Origin: Oscillospiraceae bacterium
Lineage (GTDB): Bacteria; Bacillota; Clostridia; UBA1212; SIG427
NCBI GenBank assembly: GCA_015069135.1
Contig: SVJE01000001.1
Location: forward strand, 124,001 to 188,000
Length of the DNA: 64,000 bases
Reading direction: 5' to 3'
Each line of letters begins with the position of its first letter. Within the stretch, counting starts at the first letter, position 1. The translations under genes were made by a program, and so were the position numbers. Below are positions 48,506-58,656 of the stretch, piece by piece. The notes below the pieces were generated by a model. That model was not told where the DNA came from, ran no database searches, and saw nothing but the letters and a program-made list of their open reading frames with translations.

Positions 48506-48531
48506 TTTATATAAAAACATAGGTGAATAAA

Positions 48532-51273
48532 GTGTCGTCAGATAATTATGTAATTGAATTAAAAGGTATCAGTAAATATTTTGGTGATGTTGTTGCCAAC
48601 GATAATATTGATCTTGCTGTTAAAAAGGGTGAGATTCTTGCTTTGCTGGGTGAAAACGGATCCGGTAAAACAACCCTTATGAATATGTTGTCAGGTATCT
48701 ATAAACCTGATAACGGTAAAATATTTATTGAAGGACAGGAAGTAACCATTCAGTCTCCTGAAGATGCCAAACACTTTGGTATTGGTATGGTTCATCAGCA
48801 TTTTAAATTGGTGGACAAGTTTTCTGCTGCTGATAATATCTGGATTGGTACAGAGGGAGGTTCTCCATGGCTGACTAAACAGAGAAATGAAAAGATAGGT
48901 AAAATCAGTAAGCAGTTTGGATTTGAAGTAAATCCTGAAAAAATGATTTATGATATGTCTGTAAGTGAAAAGCAGACAGTAGAAATATTGAAAGTATTGT
49001 ACTATGGTGCTGATATTCTTATTCTTGATGAACCTACAGCAGTACTTACTTTACAAGAAACAAGAAAATTATTCGCAGTTCTGCGTCAAATGAAAAAGCA
49101 GGGTTGTGCTATTATAATTATTACCCACAAACTTAATGAAGTTCTTGAAATTAGTGACAGAGTTACTATTTTACGAAAAGGTCAGAGTGTTGCCACTGTT
49201 AACACAAAAGAGACAAACGCCCAGGAACTTACAGACCTTATGGTTGGTAAATCCGTGTCACTTGAAATTGAAAGACCTGTTGTTGAAAAACAGGAACTCT
49301 TACTTGATGTTAAAAATCTTTCTGTTATAAGAGATGACACATCTGTTGCTCTTGATAATGTATCATTTGAGCTTTATGGTGGAGAAATTCTCGGTGTGGC
49401 CGGCGTATCCGGATGTGGCCAGAAAGAGCTTTGTGAATCTATTGCAGGTCTGGTGCCTGTTTCCCAAGGGTCTTCTATTCTTTATAAAGGTGAAGAAATT
49501 GCAGGTACATCTCCACGATCTATAATTAAAAAAGGTATCAGTATGAGTTTTATTCCGGAGGACAGATTGGGAATGGGACTTGCGGCATCTTTAGGTATTA
49601 CTGATAATATGATGCTTAAAAGCTATGTGGACAACAAAGGACCTTTTGTTAACAGGAGAGCTGCTAAAAAACTTGCTGATAAGGTTGTAGAAGAGTTGGA
49701 AGTAGTTACTCCGGGCACAGAAACTCCTGTCAGAAGACTTTCCGGTGGTAATGTTCAGAAAGTTCTTTTGGGACGTGAAATATCTGCAAAGCCTAATGTA
49801 ATTATTACAGCCTATCCTGTGCGTGGTCTTGATATTAACTCTTCTTATATGATATATGACATTCTTAATCAGCAGAAAAAAGACGGAGTTGGTGTGTTGT
49901 TTGTTGGTGAAGATCTGGATGTAATGCTGGAGCTTTGTGACAGAATTGTTGTTCTTTGTCATGGTAAGGTTACAGGTATTGTTGATGCTAAGGAAACTTC
50001 CAAGGAAGAATTAGGTCTCCTTATGACAGATGCAGGTTCTGTACGTGAAAAGGAAGAAAGTCCTGAAGCTATGGGTGCAGATGAGAATTCATTCAGATAT
50101 ATTCCTGAGGCTACTGAAGAAAATAAAAAAGAGTTTAAACTCCCTAAAGCCAAGACTCCTTTTGTGCGAATTGCTAAAAAGGCTGACATTTCTTTATGGA
50201 AAGCTGTTGGCTTGTATGCAATTTCAATTCTTGTTGCTTTAGTTTTGGGTGGATTGTTTATCTGGGCAATTGGTCAGAATCCATTTGAATATTATAGAGA
50301 AGTTCTTAAAGGCTGTTTTGATTTTCAGAATGCAAAACCAATTTATTTCAGAGGTTTTTTACGTGTTTTGATTCCGTTGCTGACTACATCTTTAGGTATT
50401 GCGGTTGCGTTTAAAATGAAATTCTGGAATATAGGTGCGAATGGTCAGTTTATGATGGGTGCTATCTCTGCTACAACTGTTGCATTCCTGTTGGGAGATG
50501 TTCTTCCTCAGTGGGCAATGTTACTTGTTATGTTGGCAGCCGGTATTTTCGGTGGTGGTCTCCTAGGCTTACTAGTTGCATTTTTCAAAGTGAAGTTCAA
50601 TGCAAGTGAAACTTTGCTTACACTTATGTTTAACTATATTCTCTTGTATTTTACAGCATTTTTGAAAAATCTTATGTTCTATAGAACAGTTTCCGAAACC
50701 GGTCAGGTTTTCAGACCTGAATTTAAAACCTTACCTGAAAATGCATGGCTTTATACTGTTGATTTAGGAAATGTTACTGTAGACATTTCACTATTTGTAT
50801 CAATTGGACTTGCTGTATTTTTGTTTTTCTATCTTAAAAATACAAAACAAGGTTATGAAATAGCAGTTGTAGGTGATAGCCCTAATACTGCAAAATATGC
50901 CGGAATGAATGTTAAGAAGATTATTCTCCGTACAGCTTTCATAAGTGCCGCTATTGCAGGTGCTGCCGGAATGATGGAAGTTGCGGGTTCTGCTACCAGC
51001 CATACATTAAGTGAAAACATTACATCTGATGTTGGTTTTACCGGAATCACAGTAGCATATATTGCTAAACTTAATCCATTGGGAATTGTAATTGCTTCTG
51101 TTGGTATGGCAATTTTACAGAAAGGTGCTGCAATTGCTGAAAGTACATTTAATATATCATCTTCAGCTTCATCCATTTTACAGGGTATAATCCTGTTTAC
51201 GGTACTTGCGGCAGACTTCTTCTCAAGATATAAATTTGTGTTTAATTTCGGTAAAAAGGAGGTTTCCAAATGA
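48532..51273 (+). CDS. fused ABC transporter ATPase-permease (BMP/nucleoside type)
   Basis: A 913-aa single polypeptide. GTG 48532 has AGGTG 6 bases upstream and is preferred to GTG 48523. Residues about 5-510 hold two ABC cassettes in the YufO manner: the first with GENGSGKTTL, the second with a degenerate P-loop (AGVSGCGQKELC) and signature RRLSGGNVQK. An acidic linker (about 510-560) joins them to a permease (about 565-913) with ten-odd helices, 'FWNIGANGQFMMGA', homologous to YufP. ATPase and permease are normally separate proteins. The stop overlaps the second permease gene. Confidence 0.92.
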   Translation: MSSDNYVIELKGISKYFGDVVANDNIDLAVKKGEILALLGENGSGKTTLMNMLSGIYKPDNGKIFIEGQEVTIQSPEDAKHFGIGMVHQHFKLVDKFSAADNIWIGTEGGSPWLTKQRNEKIGKISKQFGFEVNPEKMIYDMSVSEKQTVEILKVLYYGADILILDEPTAVLTLQETRKLFAVLRQMKKQGCAIIIITHKLNEVLEISDRVTILRKGQSVATVNTKETNAQELTDLMVGKSVSLEIERPVVEKQELLLDVKNLSVIRDDTSVALDNVSFELYGGEILGVAGVSGCGQKELCESIAGLVPVSQGSSILYKGEEIAGTSPRSIIKKGISMSFIPEDRLGMGLAASLGITDNMMLKSYVDNKGPFVNRRAAKKLADKVVEELEVVTPGTETPVRRLSGGNVQKVLLGREISAKPNVIITAYPVRGLDINSSYMIYDILNQQKKDGVGVLFVGEDLDVMLELCDRIVVLCHGKVTGIVDAKETSKEELGLLMTDAGSVREKEESPEAMGADENSFRYIPEATEENKKEFKLPKAKTPFVRIAKKADISLWKAVGLYAISILVALVLGGLFIWAIGQNPFEYYREVLKGCFDFQNAKPIYFRGFLRVLIPLLTTSLGIAVAFKMKFWNIGANGQFMMGAISATTVAFLLGDVLPQWAMLLVMLAAGIFGGGLLGLLVAFFKVKFNASETLLTLMFNYILLYFTAFLKNLMFYRTVSETGQVFRPEFKTLPENAWLYTVDLGNVTVDISLFVSIGLAVFLFFYLKNTKQGYEIAVVGDSPNTAKYAGMNVKKIILRTAFISAAIAGAAGMMEVAGSATSHTLSENITSDVGFTGITVAYIAKLNPLGIVIASVGMAILQKGAAIAESTFNISSSASSILQGIILFTVLAADFFSRYKFVFNFGKKEVSK

Positions 51274-52256
51274 ATGCTATAGTTAACTTTTTATTCTATT
51301 CTGTAAGAGCCGGAACTCCTTTGTTGCTTGGTACAACCGGTGAAATTATTTCAGAAAAATCAGGAAGTATGAACCTTGGTGTTGAAGGTATGATGGCTGT
51401 AGGCGCTATTACCGGATATTATCTTGGATGTAAGACAAACAGTGTTTTAGTTGCTTTGTTAGTTGCTTTTTTATCTGCAGCTTTATGTGGTCTTGTATTT
51501 GCTTTCTTAACAACCACATTACAGGCAAATCAGAATGTTACCGGTCTTGCTATGACAACTTTTGGTGTTGGTGTTTATACACTTATCGGAAGAAGTCTTA
51601 CTCAGTCAGGTGAATTTCCTGCGATGGATAGTGCAAATAAATTAGTTGCTTTTTCGAAAGATACCGGTATTCCGCTTTTGAGAGATATTCCAATACTTGG
51701 CAAATTGCTGTTTTCTTATAACTATTTTGTTTATCTAGCAATTATTATTGCTGTACTATTATGGGTATATATTGCTAAAACAAAACAAGGTTTAAGACTT
51801 CGTGCTGTTGGTGAAAATCCTGGTGCTGCTGATGCTTGTGGCGTTAACATTACTTTGTATAAATATCTTCATGCTATAGGTGGTGCAGGTATTTGTGGAA
51901 TAGGCGGTTTGTATATGGCCTTAGTTACAAATGGTGGTGCTTGGAATGAATCCTGGATTAATGGTTTCGGTTGGATTTCTGTTGCTTTGGTTATTTTTGC
52001 CAGCTGGAGTCCTATGGTTGCTATTTTCGGATCATGCTTCTTTGGAATATTTAACGCATTACAGGCATGGAAAGGTAATCTTACAGATGCTTTCCCTAAT
52101 GCTTTAGGTTGGTTAAGTGTTTTACCTAATGAATTCTATCAGATGTTGCCTTTCCTTATTACAGCTCTTGTTTTGATTATATCTTCCGTAAGACAGAAGA
52201 AACATTCAAAAGCACCGGCTTATGTTGGCGTTAACTATTTTAGGGAAGACAGATAA
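51270..52256 (+). CDS. ABC transporter permease (YufQ-like)
   Basis: A 328-aa inner-membrane subunit with about eight to nine helices. 'GTTGEIISEKSGSMNLGVEGMMAVGAI' at the N-terminus and 'GLRLRAVGENPGAADACGVN' in the middle loop are typical of YufQ-type nucleoside permeases. It pairs with the permease half of the fused protein. It overlaps that gene by 4 bp, so expression is coupled. Substrate is inferred as nucleosides from family and the xpt neighbour. Confidence 0.93.
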   Translation: MNAIVNFLFYSVRAGTPLLLGTTGEIISEKSGSMNLGVEGMMAVGAITGYYLGCKTNSVLVALLVAFLSAALCGLVFAFLTTTLQANQNVTGLAMTTFGVGVYTLIGRSLTQSGEFPAMDSANKLVAFSKDTGIPLLRDIPILGKLLFSYNYFVYLAIIIAVLLWVYIAKTKQGLRLRAVGENPGAADACGVNITLYKYLHAIGGAGICGIGGLYMALVTNGGAWNESWINGFGWISVALVIFASWSPMVAIFGSCFFGIFNALQAWKGNLTDAFPNALGWLSVLPNEFYQMLPFLITALVLIISSVRQKKHSKAPAYVGVNYFREDR

Positions 52257-52590: not shown

Positions 52591-52800
52591 TTATTTAAAC
52601 GATACTGGTTCGAAACCTGCTTCTTTGATAACCTCCATTAAGAGATTATCGTCAACTTCTTTTGTTAATCCGACGGTAGCTGTTTTTTTACCAAGATCTA
52701 CTTCACAGGAAGAAACACCATCAATCTGTGATAAAACTTTTTCTACAGTTGCTTTACAGTGATTACACATCATACCGTTAATTGTAAGAACTTTTTTCAT
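52591..52800 (-). CDS. copZ: internal CopZ-like copper chaperone start within copA
   Basis: In the copA frame an ATG at 52800 is preceded by AAGGAAGTGAT, which matches the ideal AAGGAGGTGAT at 10 of 11 bases with correct spacing (7 bases). Initiation here gives a 69-aa protein MKKVLTINGMMCNHC..., the exact size and form of a free CopZ. I infer that the operon makes both a fused pump and free chaperone, or that copA and copZ fused by loss of a stop codon while the old start stayed active. Confidence 0.65.
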   Translation of the reverse strand: MKKVLTINGMMCNHCKATVEKVLSQIDGVSSCEVDLGKKTATVGLTKEVDDNLLMEVIKEAGFEPVSFK

Positions 52801-55077
52801 ATTATCACTTCCTTTCTTTTTATTTTTTTCAAAATATCTTAATCGTAATGCATTTGAAACCACAAAAAGTGAACTTAAACTCATAGCTAAAGAGCCTATC
52901 ATTGGACTTAATAATAAACCAAAAGCAGGGTAGAACACACCTGCTGCCAGGGGGATTCCAATAATATTATAGAAAAATGCCCAGAACAAGTTTGTTTTTA
53001 TGTTTCTGATTACTTTTTTACTTAATTTAACTGCAGTAAGAATATCTTCTAATGAATCTTTTATAAGAACAATATCTGCTGATTCAATAGCGATATCTGT
53101 ACCTTTACCGATGGCAATACCTATATGTGCTCTTGTAAGGGCAGGTGCGTCGTTAATACCGTCGCCAACCATAGCAACTATTTTACCTGAATTCTGAAGC
53201 TCTCTTACGTGAGCTTCCTTATCACCAGGAAGAACATCAGAGATTATGTCGGTTATGCCAAGATGTTCTCCTATTTTCTTAGCAGTTAATTTGTTGTCAC
53301 CTGTTAACATTATTGTTTTGATTCCAAGCTTGTTAAAATCTTTAATAACAGAAGGTGCTTCCGGTCTTATGGTGTCTGCAACTGCGATTAGTCCGGCTAT
53401 TTTACCGTCTTTTGTAAACAACAAAGGTGTCTTACCCTCATTAGAGAGTGCAAAGACTTTATCTGTAATATTGTCCTCGATGGGAGCTATTGTTTTTGCA
53501 AAATCAAGATTTCCACCGGTCCAATGTATTCCATTTATGTCAGCTTCAATACCTCCACCGGGAATCATTTTGAAATTATCTGCTTCAATGTCAGGTAAGT
53601 TTCCGGCTTTTTCTGTAATTGCCTTTGCAAATGGATGATTACTTCCTTTTTCGGCAATGGCTGCGTATTTTAATAAATCTTTTTCATTTAGATTGCTGTC
53701 GATAATAATCACATCTGTCACAGAAGGTTTGCCTTGAGTCAAGGTTCCTGTTTTGTCAAAAATAATTGTATCAATTGATTTGAGTTGTTCAAGGGACTCA
53801 GCTGATTTAATTAATATTCCGTGTTCTGCTGCTTTACCTGTTCCAACCATAATAGCTACCGGTGTAGCTAATCCCAAAGCACATGGACAGGAAATAACCA
53901 GTACAGAAATAGATAGATTCAAAACGAATTCGAAATCATATCCAAGAAGCAACCAGATTATCATTGTAATTAATGAAATTCCTATGACTACCGGAACGAA
54001 AATACCGCTTACTTTATCAGCCAGCCTTGCAATAGGAGCTTTTGAACTACCTGCTTCTTCAACTAATTTTATGATTTGTGATAGGGTAGTATTTTTACCA
54101 ACACGTGTTGCTATCATTTTAAATGAACCGTTTTTGTTTACAGTTGCAGAAATTACAGAGTCACCTGTATTTTTTTCTACAGGAACACTTTCACCGGTTA
54201 TTGCTGACTGATCCACATTTCCGTAACCTTCAGTAATATTTCCGTCAACAGGAATTATATCTCCCGGCTTAACGATGATAACATCACCTTCGATAATATT
54301 ATCAACGGATATAACTTTTGTTTCGCTGTTTCTGATTACGGTAGCTGTTTTTGGGGCAAGATTAATTAGTTTTGAAATTGCATCTGATGTTTTTGATTTT
54401 GAACGAGCCTCCAAATATTTACCTAATGATACAAGTGTCAGAATCATTGCGCTTGATTCAAAATATAGATTATGAGCATAATGGTGAAGTGTATTTGTAT
54501 CACCGCTTCCTTGTGCATTCATCATAATGTAGAGTGAAACTATACCATAAACCAAAGCAGCTCCTGAACCAATGGAAACAAGAGTGTCCATGTTAGGTGA
54601 TTTTTTAACTAAAGCTTTGAATCCTGAAATATAGAAATGTTTATTTAACAAAACAACTACCATTGTAATCAAAAATTGTGTGAATGGTGAAATTAAAATA
54701 TTTTCTTCTGCTGTAAAAAGCTTTGGCATAGGTAAACCAATCATGTGTCCCATAGCAAGATACATAAGGGGGAACAGTAGTATGATTGATATAACCAGTT
54801 TGATTTTTCTGGTTTTATCTTTTTCATTTATTTTATTATAAACAGGATTAACATTATCTGATGCTGATTCTAATGAAGCACCATAACCTATAGATATCAC
54901 AGTATTAATTATTTTTTCCTCAGAGACTTTATCTTCATCAAATTCAACACTCATTTTATTTGTAATAAGATTTACTTGTGTATTTTTAATACCGTCTAAT
55001 TTTTCAATGTTTTTAGTAATGTTAGCCTGGCAAGCTGCACAGCTCATGCCTGTTATATTAAATACTTGCTTTCTCAT
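52591..55077 (-). CDS. copA: copper-exporting P1B-type ATPase fused to C-terminal CopZ-like domain
   Basis: An 828-aa pump for Cu(I). An N-terminal heavy-metal domain with GMSCAACQ is followed by eight helices, the LTGESVPVEK-type actuator, the membrane CPC site in ISCPCALGLATPV, DKTGTLTQG, the SNHPFAKAI His-Pro motif and GDGINDAPALTRA. After the last helices a linker KKKGSDN joins a second heavy-metal domain, GMMCNHCKATVEK, at residues about 760-828. That tail looks exactly like a CopZ chaperone. The start is ATG 55077, after GAGG; GTG 55083 overlaps that site. It lies 7 bp after csoR. Confidence 0.95.
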   Translation of the reverse strand: MRKQVFNITGMSCAACQANITKNIEKLDGIKNTQVNLITNKMSVEFDEDKVSEEKIINTVISIGYGASLESASDNVNPVYNKINEKDKTRKIKLVISIILLFPLMYLAMGHMIGLPMPKLFTAEENILISPFTQFLITMVVVLLNKHFYISGFKALVKKSPNMDTLVSIGSGAALVYGIVSLYIMMNAQGSGDTNTLHHYAHNLYFESSAMILTLVSLGKYLEARSKSKTSDAISKLINLAPKTATVIRNSETKVISVDNIIEGDVIIVKPGDIIPVDGNITEGYGNVDQSAITGESVPVEKNTGDSVISATVNKNGSFKMIATRVGKNTTLSQIIKLVEEAGSSKAPIARLADKVSGIFVPVVIGISLITMIIWLLLGYDFEFVLNLSISVLVISCPCALGLATPVAIMVGTGKAAEHGILIKSAESLEQLKSIDTIIFDKTGTLTQGKPSVTDVIIIDSNLNEKDLLKYAAIAEKGSNHPFAKAITEKAGNLPDIEADNFKMIPGGGIEADINGIHWTGGNLDFAKTIAPIEDNITDKVFALSNEGKTPLLFTKDGKIAGLIAVADTIRPEAPSVIKDFNKLGIKTIMLTGDNKLTAKKIGEHLGITDIISDVLPGDKEAHVRELQNSGKIVAMVGDGINDAPALTRAHIGIAIGKGTDIAIESADIVLIKDSLEDILTAVKLSKKVIRNIKTNLFWAFFYNIIGIPLAAGVFYPAFGLLLSPMIGSLAMSLSSLFVVSNALRLRYFEKNKKKGSDNMKKVLTINGMMCNHCKATVEKVLSQIDGVSSCEVDLGKKTATVGLTKEVDDNLLMEVIKEAGFEPVSFK

Positions 55078-55084
55078 AGCCACC

Positions 55085-55381
55085 TCATTTTAAGTATTTT
55101 ATAAGCTCAATAGCTTCTTTTGTTATTTCTTTGTTTCCGTTTTTTATTTCTTCGGTCATACATGTGTTCATGTGGTCCTGAAGTATAATATATCCAAAAT
55201 TTTCTAATCCTTTTTCTATTGCTGACAATTGAATTAAAATATCTCCGCAATAGCGATTTTCTTCAAGCATTTTTTTAATACCATTGACTTGTCCCTCTAT
55301 GCGATTAAGCCTTGTAATAAGATTCTTCTGCATTTCAGGAGTACGTGGTGTATTTTTAAGTTTACAGCAATTATTTTTCAT
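55085..55381 (-). CDS. csoR: copper-sensing repressor CsoR
   Basis: A 98-aa helical-bundle regulator. The start is ATG 55381, with AAAGGAG 6 bases upstream. The Cu(I) ligands are in place: Cys in NRYCGDIL, and His and Cys in QDHMNTCM. This separates it from the nickel or formaldehyde sensors of the same family. CsoR leaves DNA when it binds Cu(I), releasing transcription of itself and copA. The operator lies inside its own promoter. A CC pair at residues 5-6 is extra and of unknown use. Confidence 0.94.
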   Translation of the reverse strand: MKNNCCKLKNTPRTPEMQKNLITRLNRIEGQVNGIKKMLEENRYCGDILIQLSAIEKGLENFGYIILQDHMNTCMTEEIKNGNKEITKEAIELIKYLK

Positions 55382-55408
55382 TTTTTTCTCCTTTTTATTT
55401 GTAAATAT

Positions 55409-55437
55409 ATTATATACCCCCATGGGGTATATTACAA
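55409..55437 (-). promoter_or_regulatory. csoR-copA promoter with CsoR operator in the spacer
   Basis: On the minus strand, -35 TTGTAA (plus 55432-55437) and -10 TATAAT (plus 55409-55414) are 17 bases apart. The spacer holds the palindrome TATACCCC-CAT-GGGGTATA (55413-55431), the typical G/C-tract CsoR site. Binding there would exclude RNA polymerase, giving copper-induced expression. Confidence 0.92.
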
Positions 55438-55512: not shown

Positions 55513-56940
55513 ATGTTTAATAGAGTTAAGGTTTCTGTTTTTGTGTTTATTATCTTTTCTTTTGTTTTTATAAATTTCTCTGTTGCTGAATCTGTAGAAT
55601 TTTATTTCAAAGTAGAAACTGATGAGTATAAAGATTATGAAAGTGAATATTACTGTAATAATGTGCTGAAAAATAAAAGACAAAAAGATTTTTACAGAAC
55701 ACTTGTTAAGGCATTATCTTCTTTTAACGAAAATAATATTAGGAATAAGTTTTCTTTGAAATTTGAATTTGATAAGACATGGGGAAGTTTATTTAAACAA
55801 GAAGAGATATCAAATGTACTAAATTGTGTATTTAAAGATCATCCTGAGTTTTTCTGGTTCTATAATATAACATATTCTCAGAAATATAATTTGATTAAAA
55901 ACAAATCGGTCATAACATTAAATGTCAACTCAAATTCTGTTTTTGATGAAGATATAGATTTAAAAAATGAAATATATAATCTTAAAAAGAATGTTGATGG
56001 TGTATTAGCCGGCATGCCAGAAGGTGATGTATACAATAAACTTAAATATATTAATTCCTGGTTGTGTAAGAATAATATTTATAATACAAATTATGTTGAG
56101 TCGCCACATACCAGACCTGATATGCTTGTTTCTGCATTGGTAAAGGATAATACAGAAGATAATGGCCCCAGGTGCCTTGGGTATGCCTCCGCTTTTAAAT
56201 TTTTATGTGATAAATCCGATATTCCTTGTGTTATGATTTTTGGTAGAACATATAAAAACAAAGGAGAATCTGAAAACCATGCCTGGAATGCAGTTCGTAT
56301 AGATAATAAATGGTATGGGATTGATGTTACCTGGAATGATGTTCCCGTTGGAAACAAGTTCTTCTTGGTTGGAAGCGAAACTGTTACAATTAAGCATTTC
56401 GGTAAAATATATGATGAATTTGGTGAAAATCATGTGCCTGGGTTAATTGGAGATAATTTTGTAGAATACTATCCGGAGTTAAGTAAAGATGAATTTTCTT
56501 CCGATAGTCATCCATTAATCAGGTTAGAATTAATAAATTCATTGGTTAATGTTGATATTAATGATGGAATTATAAATATTCCTTCAGAAATGAAAGCAAA
56601 GGATGTTATACAATTATTTAAACATTCCGAAAAAATAGGAATATTATGGGATGGTTATGAACTTTCTTCGCAGGAATATGTTGGGACGGGAAGCGTCGTT
56701 TACATAAATGACGAAAATGGAAAAATGAAACAGGATGCTGAAATTGTTATAAAAGGAGATCTTAATGGTGACTCAAAAATAACAGTAGAAGATTATATGT
56801 TAATTAAAAAATACGTATCCGATAAGTATGATTTTGAAAGAGTGTCCTTTATGGCGGGTGATCTTAATTATGATAATATGATTACATCAACCGATTATCT
56901 GAAACTAAAGAATTTAATTATAAAAAGTAAGGTGATTTAA
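55513..56940 (+). CDS. secreted transglutaminase-like protein with dockerin-like tail (copy 1)
   Basis: A 475-aa protein with signal peptide residues 1-26. A transglutaminase-like core holds the triad C221 (GPRCLGYASAFKFLCD), H256 (ENHAWNAVRI) and D271 (WYGIDVTWNDV). A beta domain near 330-420 (KSEKIGILWDG-like) is followed by two dockerin-like calcium repeats, GDLNGDSKITVEDY and GDLNYDNMITSTDY. The core may be a peptidase or crosslinker. The tail normally binds a cohesin or packs on the surface, but no cohesin or cellulosome gene is visible. It is paralogous to the next gene. ATG 55513 has AAAGGA upstream. Confidence 0.87.
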   Translation: MFNRVKVSVFVFIIFSFVFINFSVAESVEFYFKVETDEYKDYESEYYCNNVLKNKRQKDFYRTLVKALSSFNENNIRNKFSLKFEFDKTWGSLFKQEEISNVLNCVFKDHPEFFWFYNITYSQKYNLIKNKSVITLNVNSNSVFDEDIDLKNEIYNLKKNVDGVLAGMPEGDVYNKLKYINSWLCKNNIYNTNYVESPHTRPDMLVSALVKDNTEDNGPRCLGYASAFKFLCDKSDIPCVMIFGRTYKNKGESENHAWNAVRIDNKWYGIDVTWNDVPVGNKFFLVGSETVTIKHFGKIYDEFGENHVPGLIGDNFVEYYPELSKDEFSSDSHPLIRLELINSLVNVDINDGIINIPSEMKAKDVIQLFKHSEKIGILWDGYELSSQEYVGTGSVVYINDENGKMKQDAEIVIKGDLNGDSKITVEDYMLIKKYVSDKYDFERVSFMAGDLNYDNMITSTDYLKLKNLIIKSKVI

Positions 56941-57054: not shown

Positions 57055-58656
57055 TTGTTGAATTATTTGAAAAGATTTATATGTTGTTTTATTTTATTGA
57101 CTGTTTTACTTTCTATACCACTTGCAACATTAGCAACAGATGTACAAAGTGCAAAACCTGTCGTCTTCTCACAAGCTGCTGATGCCAGGATTAAACCTGT
57201 TCCAAAGAGTGGTGAAGCTATTGCAAATCAGGCAAACTCCGATGTGCTTTATTATGTACCTGCTAAAAGTTATGAACCAACATATATGGATTATAACTGT
57301 CAGTATTATTTAGAAACAAAATATCAAAAAGATTTATATGGTATGATGGTTTCTTCCCTGGCGAATCATCCTGTTGATCAATTAAAACCCGAATTTAACA
57401 TTACATATGTTTTTGAAAATGCCGGAGGAGAACTTTTAAGCTATGACGATATTGTTAAAGTTCTGTACAGTATTTGGAGTGATCATGCTGAGAATTTCTG
57501 GTTTTTCAGTGCAGGCTATGGTTCTTATTATGATTCTGCTGATAATATTTTTGTAATTACAATTTATGTTTATGCTGATTCAATCTGGACTGATGCTGCT
57601 GCATTACAGCAGGATGAAATTAATTTCGAAAAAGAAGTAAATAAGATTGTTGCTGCAGCTCCGAAGACAACAGCTTATGATGCAATCCTTTATTTTGATC
57701 AGTGGTTGTGTGATAATAATGTTTATAGTAATTTAGGAGCTTCCCAGGGATATAATGTTTCCAATACTGCTGTATCAGCAATTTTAAGTAAAAATAATCC
57801 ATTAACCGGTCCGGTCTGTCAGGGTTATTCCACAGCATTTAAATATTTGTGTGATAAAGCAGGTATTGTGTGTGTAATGATTCTTGGAAATGCTTACGAC
57901 AATAGTGGACTTATGGGTGCCCATGCATGGAACTATGTAAAGCTTGATGGTAAGTGGTATGCTTTGGATATAACCTGGAATGATTCCTTAGGTAATAAAT
58001 CCCATTTGTTGGTTGGTAGTCAGACTGTATGTGAGCCTTCTGATGGTCCCGGATATGATCAATTTGGTGAAAGTCATAAAAATGATATGTCGACAGATAA
58101 TCTCCGATTTACATATCCTTCGTTGAGTACTACAGCATATGTTCACAAAGGTAATTCTAATTTTGTTGGTGATTCTACAACTCCTACACCAACAGCAACA
58201 CCTGCACCTACTCAGGCTCCTATCGACTACAAATTAGAGCTTTTGGATACTTCAGGTGTTACTAAGATTAGTTCAGGTTACCTTGAAGGTGTAGCACAAT
58301 CATTAACAAAAGATACTTTAACATCTATGTTTAAATATTCTGACCATATTAAAGTTTTGAAAAATGGTAACGAATTGTCTGGTACTGGCATTGTTGGTTC
58401 AGGTTGTGTAATTCAGATTGTTAATGATAGTAATGTCGTTGTTGAAGAAATCACTGTTGTTATTAAAGGTGATGTAAATGGTGATGGTCGAGTTGCAGCT
58501 GTTGACTATATGTTAGTTAAAAAGCAACTTAAAGACGGTATCACAATTACTGGTGCAATATTTAAAGCTGCCGATATTGATGATGGTGGAGTTTTATCTA
58601 CAACCGATTACATGAAGATAAAAAGACATATTAAAGGTAACTATGATTTTTATTAA
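57055..58656 (+). CDS. secreted transglutaminase-like protein with dockerin-like tail (copy 2)
   Basis: A 533-aa paralogue of the previous protein with a longer N-terminus and a Thr/Pro linker. The signal peptide is residues 1-28. The triad is C255 (GPVCQGYSTAFKYLCD), H290 (GAHAWNYVKL) and D305 (YALDITWNDS). A linker TPTPTATPAPTQAP (about 380-393) joins a beta domain and two dockerin-like repeats (GDVNGDGRVAAVDY, AADIDDGGVLSTTDY). TTG 57055 is the start, with GGGAG upstream; TTG 57058 is an alternative. Two tandem copies point to gene duplication. Confidence 0.87.
   Translation: MLNYLKRFICCFILLTVLLSIPLATLATDVQSAKPVVFSQAADARIKPVPKSGEAIANQANSDVLYYVPAKSYEPTYMDYNCQYYLETKYQKDLYGMMVSSLANHPVDQLKPEFNITYVFENAGGELLSYDDIVKVLYSIWSDHAENFWFFSAGYGSYYDSADNIFVITIYVYADSIWTDAAALQQDEINFEKEVNKIVAAAPKTTAYDAILYFDQWLCDNNVYSNLGASQGYNVSNTAVSAILSKNNPLTGPVCQGYSTAFKYLCDKAGIVCVMILGNAYDNSGLMGAHAWNYVKLDGKWYALDITWNDSLGNKSHLLVGSQTVCEPSDGPGYDQFGESHKNDMSTDNLRFTYPSLSTTAYVHKGNSNFVGDSTTPTPTATPAPTQAPIDYKLELLDTSGVTKISSGYLEGVAQSLTKDTLTSMFKYSDHIKVLKNGNELSGTGIVGSGCVIQIVNDSNVVVEEITVVIKGDVNGDGRVAAVDYMLVKKQLKDGITITGAIFKAADIDDGGVLSTTDYMKIKRHIKGNYDFY

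Follow-up and report, generated by a model that had tools for sequence, protein, structure and literature searches.

Gram-positive csoR-copA-copZ operons carry three functions under a CsoR-type site, and their copZ is a separate gene. In Escherichia coli, Meydan 2017 and Drees 2017 reportedly traced CopA(Z) to programmed -1 frameshifting in copA. This product comes from the N-terminal domain of the pump (PMC5009743; references in PMC7558416). The domain is ended early there, by the frameshift or by a shortened transcript, and one copper-pump gene thus yields both a pump and a soluble chaperone of ~70 amino acids. Internal translation starts that free a C-terminal part are known from unrelated proteins. 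In Cas8/Cas11, an internal start lets the C-terminal portion of a large protein be made by itself (PMC11899642), although that small product is a subunit of a complex and the one predicted here is a metal carrier. The CTP1L endolysin of a Clostridium phage likewise has an internal start that gives a free C-terminal domain (PMC4777826); it shares the internal start with the gene described below, whereas protein and role are unrelated. Finally, CopA of Archaeoglobus fulgidus has a C-terminal metal-binding domain (reference in PMC7558416). This pump therefore resembles the present one in having HMA domains at both ends. We know of no internal start reported for Archaeoglobus fulgidus CopA.

The window (the whole stretch of 64,000 nucleotides that was analysed) contains a csoR gene immediately upstream of a copA gene fused to copZ (Table 1). 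Positions 52591-55083 of the minus strand form a single uninterrupted ORF of 830 amino acids when counted from GTG 55083; ATG 55077, which lies behind GAGGTGG, is the likelier start of copA. Pfam models place in it an HMA domain (residues 7-67), an E1-E2 ATPase domain, a HAD hydrolase domain and a second, C-terminal HMA domain. The CopA part scores 607 bits with TIGR01511 (cut-off 397) and carries the DKTGT, GDGIND and CPCALG motifs, as is characteristic of P1B-1 copper ATPases. An in-frame fusion of copA and copZ, proposed in the first-pass annotation, is thus borne out: one open ORF joins CopA to a CopZ-type HMA domain. Compared with the Gram-positive operons, the three functions are again combined under a CsoR-type site, but copZ is fused and its start is kept.

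Table 1. Positions of the features of the copper locus within the window
Feature	Position	Strand	Remarks
Promoter-like site TTGTAA-17-TATAAT	55409..55437	-	joint best sigma-70-type match in the region, 10/12
Palindrome ATATACCCCATGGGGGTATAT, candidate CsoR-type operator	55412..55432	.	fills the promoter spacer
csoR, 98 aa, copper-type repressor	55085..55381	-	Shine-Dalgarno AAAAGGAG; PF02583 3.5e-28
copA-copZ fused gene	52591..55077	-	828 aa from ATG 55077; Shine-Dalgarno overlaps the csoR stop
Internal Shine-Dalgarno AGAAAGGAAGTGAT + AAT spacer	52801..52817	-	linker translation K-G-S-D-N; -17.0 kcal/mol
Internal ATG start	52798..52800	-	start codon at this place in 154/159 fused relatives with one C-terminal HMA
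HMA domain of CopZ type (GMMCNHC), predicted to be a free chaperone of 69 aa	52591..52800	-	HMA and CopZ models; CxHC signature

The predicted CsoR has the PF02583 fold and putative Cys-His-Cys copper ligands, read from its sequence as the Cys of RYCGD and the His and Cys of DHMNTC. A CsoR site had been proposed inside the promoter spacer, and the palindrome in Table 1 is found there as a candidate operator. A similar palindrome precedes copA in 65 of the 205 loci with enough upstream sequence.

The 69-amino-acid piece that starts at ATG 52800 matches CopZ family models with E-values from 7e-16 (NF047957, the best) to 6e-15. The curated NCBIfam cut-offs are higher than its scores (58.4 bits where NF047957 requires 85, and 55.2 where the remaining models require 95 and 91), and we therefore call it a CopZ-type HMA domain and not a certified equivalog. 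Its size, its predicted fold and its GMMCNHC motif, which is of the CxHC type, are those expected of CopZ. This CxHC motif occurs in 151 of 164 C-terminal domains from fused relatives and in none of 206 N-terminal domains, most of which have CAAC or CSAC. Since most separate CopZ proteins also have CxHC, the C-terminal domain is most likely, judging by this signature, a captured chaperone and not a duplicated pump domain; origin as a copy of the N-terminal domain is ruled out. The whole genome has two HMA domains, both in this ORF, at an assembly completeness of ~93%, which leaves room for a separate copZ in the missing part.

Immediately 5' of ATG 52800, which is in frame and precedes GMMCNHC by 8 residues, the DNA reads AGAAAGGAAGTGATAATATG (also given as AGAAAGGAAGTGATAAT). 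A run of 14 bases in it matches the complement of the usual 16S tail at 13 positions. We used the standard bacterial 16S tail because a search of the window's own genome assembly found no 16S gene. The duplex energies with this tail are -17.0 kcal/mol for ATG 52800, -10.6 for the copA start and -9.3 for csoR. The strong ribosome-binding site inside the coding sequence, also part of the first-pass annotation, is therefore real by this measure, and is stronger than copA's own.

Relatives were sampled at the level of order and class because genus and family searches covered only one and two genomes. The sample consists of 209 copA ORFs from the same order, the same class and a GTDB-wide scan; several loci come from metagenome assemblies, and contig ends truncate L139 and L101. 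A CopZ-type domain lies within the copA ORF in 164 of the 209, always with exactly one N-terminal HMA domain, a proportion that is not a population frequency since the sample is enriched for close matches to the query. L188 and L212 were called unfused by the motif search, yet are fused and have the start, and a 'downstream copZ' flag at L026 was left out of the count, since the motif had matched falsely within a different ORF. An order-wide search limited by E-value alone, with no selection for closeness, returned 23 matches, most of them fused. Fused copA genes also occur in isolates outside Clostridia, for example Olsenella and Catenisphaera.

The first-pass annotation had suggested that a stop codon intact between the two parts in relatives would point to a sequencing error. 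Such a stop is indeed intact in L090 and L092, which belong to the same order (55-56% identity) and have a separate copZ, but all 9 rows of the clade closest to the window on the tree are fused, as are about 160 other sequences. A sequencing or assembly error is ruled out as the source of the fusion, given 164 fused genes among 209. The unfused genes suggest how the junction arose. In L090 the pump ends in ...FFNRE, followed by three stops and then KGFLGMKK..., where the window has ...KKKGSDNMKK; the linker of the window therefore resembles a ribosome-binding site that has come to be translated. The tree, a quick FastTree calculation in which gain and loss of the fusion are indistinguishable, implies a minimum of 17 switches between the fused and the unfused state, 14 of them forced by well-supported branches. 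Fused copAs range down to ~45% identity with the query, which indicates that the fused state is old. The fusion with an internal start is therefore both common and old, a point absent from the first-pass annotation.

Among the 159 fusions with a single C-terminal HMA domain, the junction carries a start codon in 154 (148 ATG, 5 GTG and 1 TTG), mostly exactly 8 residues ahead of GMxCxxC; the five with GTG in place of ATG keep the Shine-Dalgarno sequence. The mean Shine-Dalgarno energy at internal starts is -9.2 kcal/mol, compared with -8.4 at the copA starts, -9.5 at separate copZ genes and -2.7 at the remaining in-frame ATGs (n = 4613) of these copA genes. Energies of -5 kcal/mol or below are reached by 99% of the junction start codons and by 21% of those other ATGs. 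As a control, second N-terminal HMA domains, which also follow a linker, have such a start in 1 case of 16. Predicted RNA structure reaches its minimum strength right at the start (-2.0 compared with ~-10 kcal/mol per 50 nucleotides), to which an A-rich composition contributes. An in-frame start codon with a ribosome-binding site is thus found inside the larger ORF and is conserved in relatives.

Linkers rich in K and E might give Shine-Dalgarno-like sequences by chance. However, when the 7 upstream codons were recoded synonymously with each gene's own codon use, the mean energy was -6.02 kcal/mol (standard deviation of the mean 0.19), as opposed to -9.26 observed, and the same recoding at other ATGs made no difference (-2.71 versus -2.79). 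Moreover, relative to the ATG, the Shine-Dalgarno sequence occurs in each of the three reading frames (56, 95 and 8 loci) and the encoded peptides differ, so it is the DNA that is conserved and not the peptide. These two results rule out a chance origin from linker composition.

The start is missing in six fusions, which represent six separate changes on the tree, and another CopZ is present in five of these six genomes. It is encoded directly downstream of copA, with its own Shine-Dalgarno sequence, in three of them (L059, L175 and L205), and in two more (L061 and L126) a strong separate CopZ is encoded at a different place in the genome; the sixth (L060) has only a weak separate HMA protein. 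The start is absent from 3 of 3 fusions with a directly downstream copZ and from 3 of 156 others (Fisher 3e-5, ignoring relatedness). The genome-wide version of this comparison gives p 0.002, with thresholds set after seeing the data and relatedness again ignored. Another CopZ-like protein (E < 1e-13) was also found in 3 of 24 fused genomes that do have the internal start, so that the start does more than replace an absent gene. The CopZ-like proteins downstream of copA in L059, L175 and L205 share the motif DGMMCGMCExHVNDAI and form a distinct CopZ subgroup.

The internal Shine-Dalgarno sequence and ATG might be nothing but fossils of the old copZ, with the full-length fusion as the sole product and the C-terminal HMA serving as an ordinary extra metal-binding domain, much as in Archaeoglobus CopA. 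Other CopAs do have C-terminal metal-binding domains (reference in PMC7558416), and an old site would persist for a while after a recent fusion. The fusions are not recent, however, given their divergence to ~45% identity. When distant pairs are compared, the linker has an identity of 0.30, the Shine-Dalgarno sequence 0.58 and the start codon 0.97, so that the site is kept in linkers that have almost wholly diverged; in addition, codon choice favours the Shine-Dalgarno sequence, and loss of the site goes with the presence of another CopZ. This explanation accordingly has little left in its favour. Because the internal start has been kept by selection across ~160 genomes, a purely fossil start is very unlikely.

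A Shine-Dalgarno-like stretch might instead slow elongating ribosomes just past the last membrane helix and so aid insertion into the membrane ahead of HMA domain synthesis. Between 9 and 128 codons separate the start from the last conserved helix motif, which always puts the Shine-Dalgarno sequence just after the membrane domain. Pausing would need no start codon, yet one is present in nearly all fusions; the distance to the helix varies widely, while that to the start codon is nearly fixed, and loss of the site beside a separate copZ is not predicted. We regard this role as highly improbable. Release of CopZ by proteolysis is equally hard to credit, since the linkers (median 31 residues) may be long and flexible enough to be cut, but their sequence is unconserved and the Shine-Dalgarno sequence, the start codon and the synonymous conservation would be left unexplained.

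The fusion, the internal Shine-Dalgarno sequence and start, the selection that conserves them and their disappearance from genomes with another CopZ are, very probably, best explained by a single gene with two protein products. The first-pass annotation proposed such a gene, as an alternative route to a product like that of E. coli copA, and the comparison of relatives strongly supports it. The stop between copA and a copZ that once followed it would have been lost, and the old copZ ribosome-binding site would now be translated as a linker (KGSDN in the window). Initiation at the copA start would give a pump with a tethered C-terminal CopZ domain, and other ribosomes would bind the retained internal site and start at ATG 52800 to give free CopZ, both from one CsoR-controlled mRNA. 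We infer that the free 69-amino-acid CopZ is made, and its amount and role likewise. Delivery of Cu(I) by CopZ to the pump and to CsoR is established in copper operons of other bacteria, and the free CopZ would then act in the same way. The two Shine-Dalgarno sequences would set the product ratio; in the window the internal one is the stronger by energy, which would be consistent with more chaperone than pump being made. Ribosomes already on copA might hinder initiation at the internal site. Some fusions have two C-terminal HMA domains (L025, L145, L146, L158 and L011). The start precedes only the last of these in L145, L146 and L158 and the first in L025, and in L011 each of the two is preceded by a candidate start; the predicted free products therefore comprise one or two domains.

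The window gene is like E. coli copA in that one copper-pump gene would provide both pump and small chaperone. In contrast to the E. coli case, the domain involved is C-terminal, is probably a captured copZ, and is read in the zero frame from its own Shine-Dalgarno sequence and ATG, with no frameshift. It is likely, in our judgement, that a copA-copZ fusion is the standard gene for copper efflux across much of Clostridia and in certain other lineages, with an internal ribosome site kept by selection in all three frames and with tethered and free chaperone as products, and that it represents a second, independently evolved one-gene, two-protein solution beside the E. coli frameshift. Internal initiation in fused genes is already known from Cas8/Cas11. 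The copA case is without report in the literature searched: a search made mostly outside subscription journals found neither a fused CopA-CopZ nor a copA with an internal start.

Gene fusion and separate expression would thus be compatible, with selection keeping a translation start working for long periods inside a coding sequence. A second, mechanistically different source of copper pump and chaperone in one gene also suggests that a linked ratio is useful. For many bacteria of gut and rumen, the annotation would lack a free copper chaperone. The natural variants, including the losses, could be used to ask why the free form is needed.

Another in-frame fusion lies close to the copper locus. 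A 916-amino-acid ORF at 48523-51273 (plus strand) joins a nucleoside-type ABC ATPase with two ABC_tran domains to its permease (BPD_transp_2). A second permease comes next at 51270-52256, and the join of the fused ORF showed no strong internal start in a comparable position. On the other side, two secreted-looking neighbours (55513-56940 and 57055-58656, plus strand) each have a transglutaminase-like core and a C-terminal type I dockerin. They are evidently paralogues, and their dockerins suggest cellulosome-like attachment.
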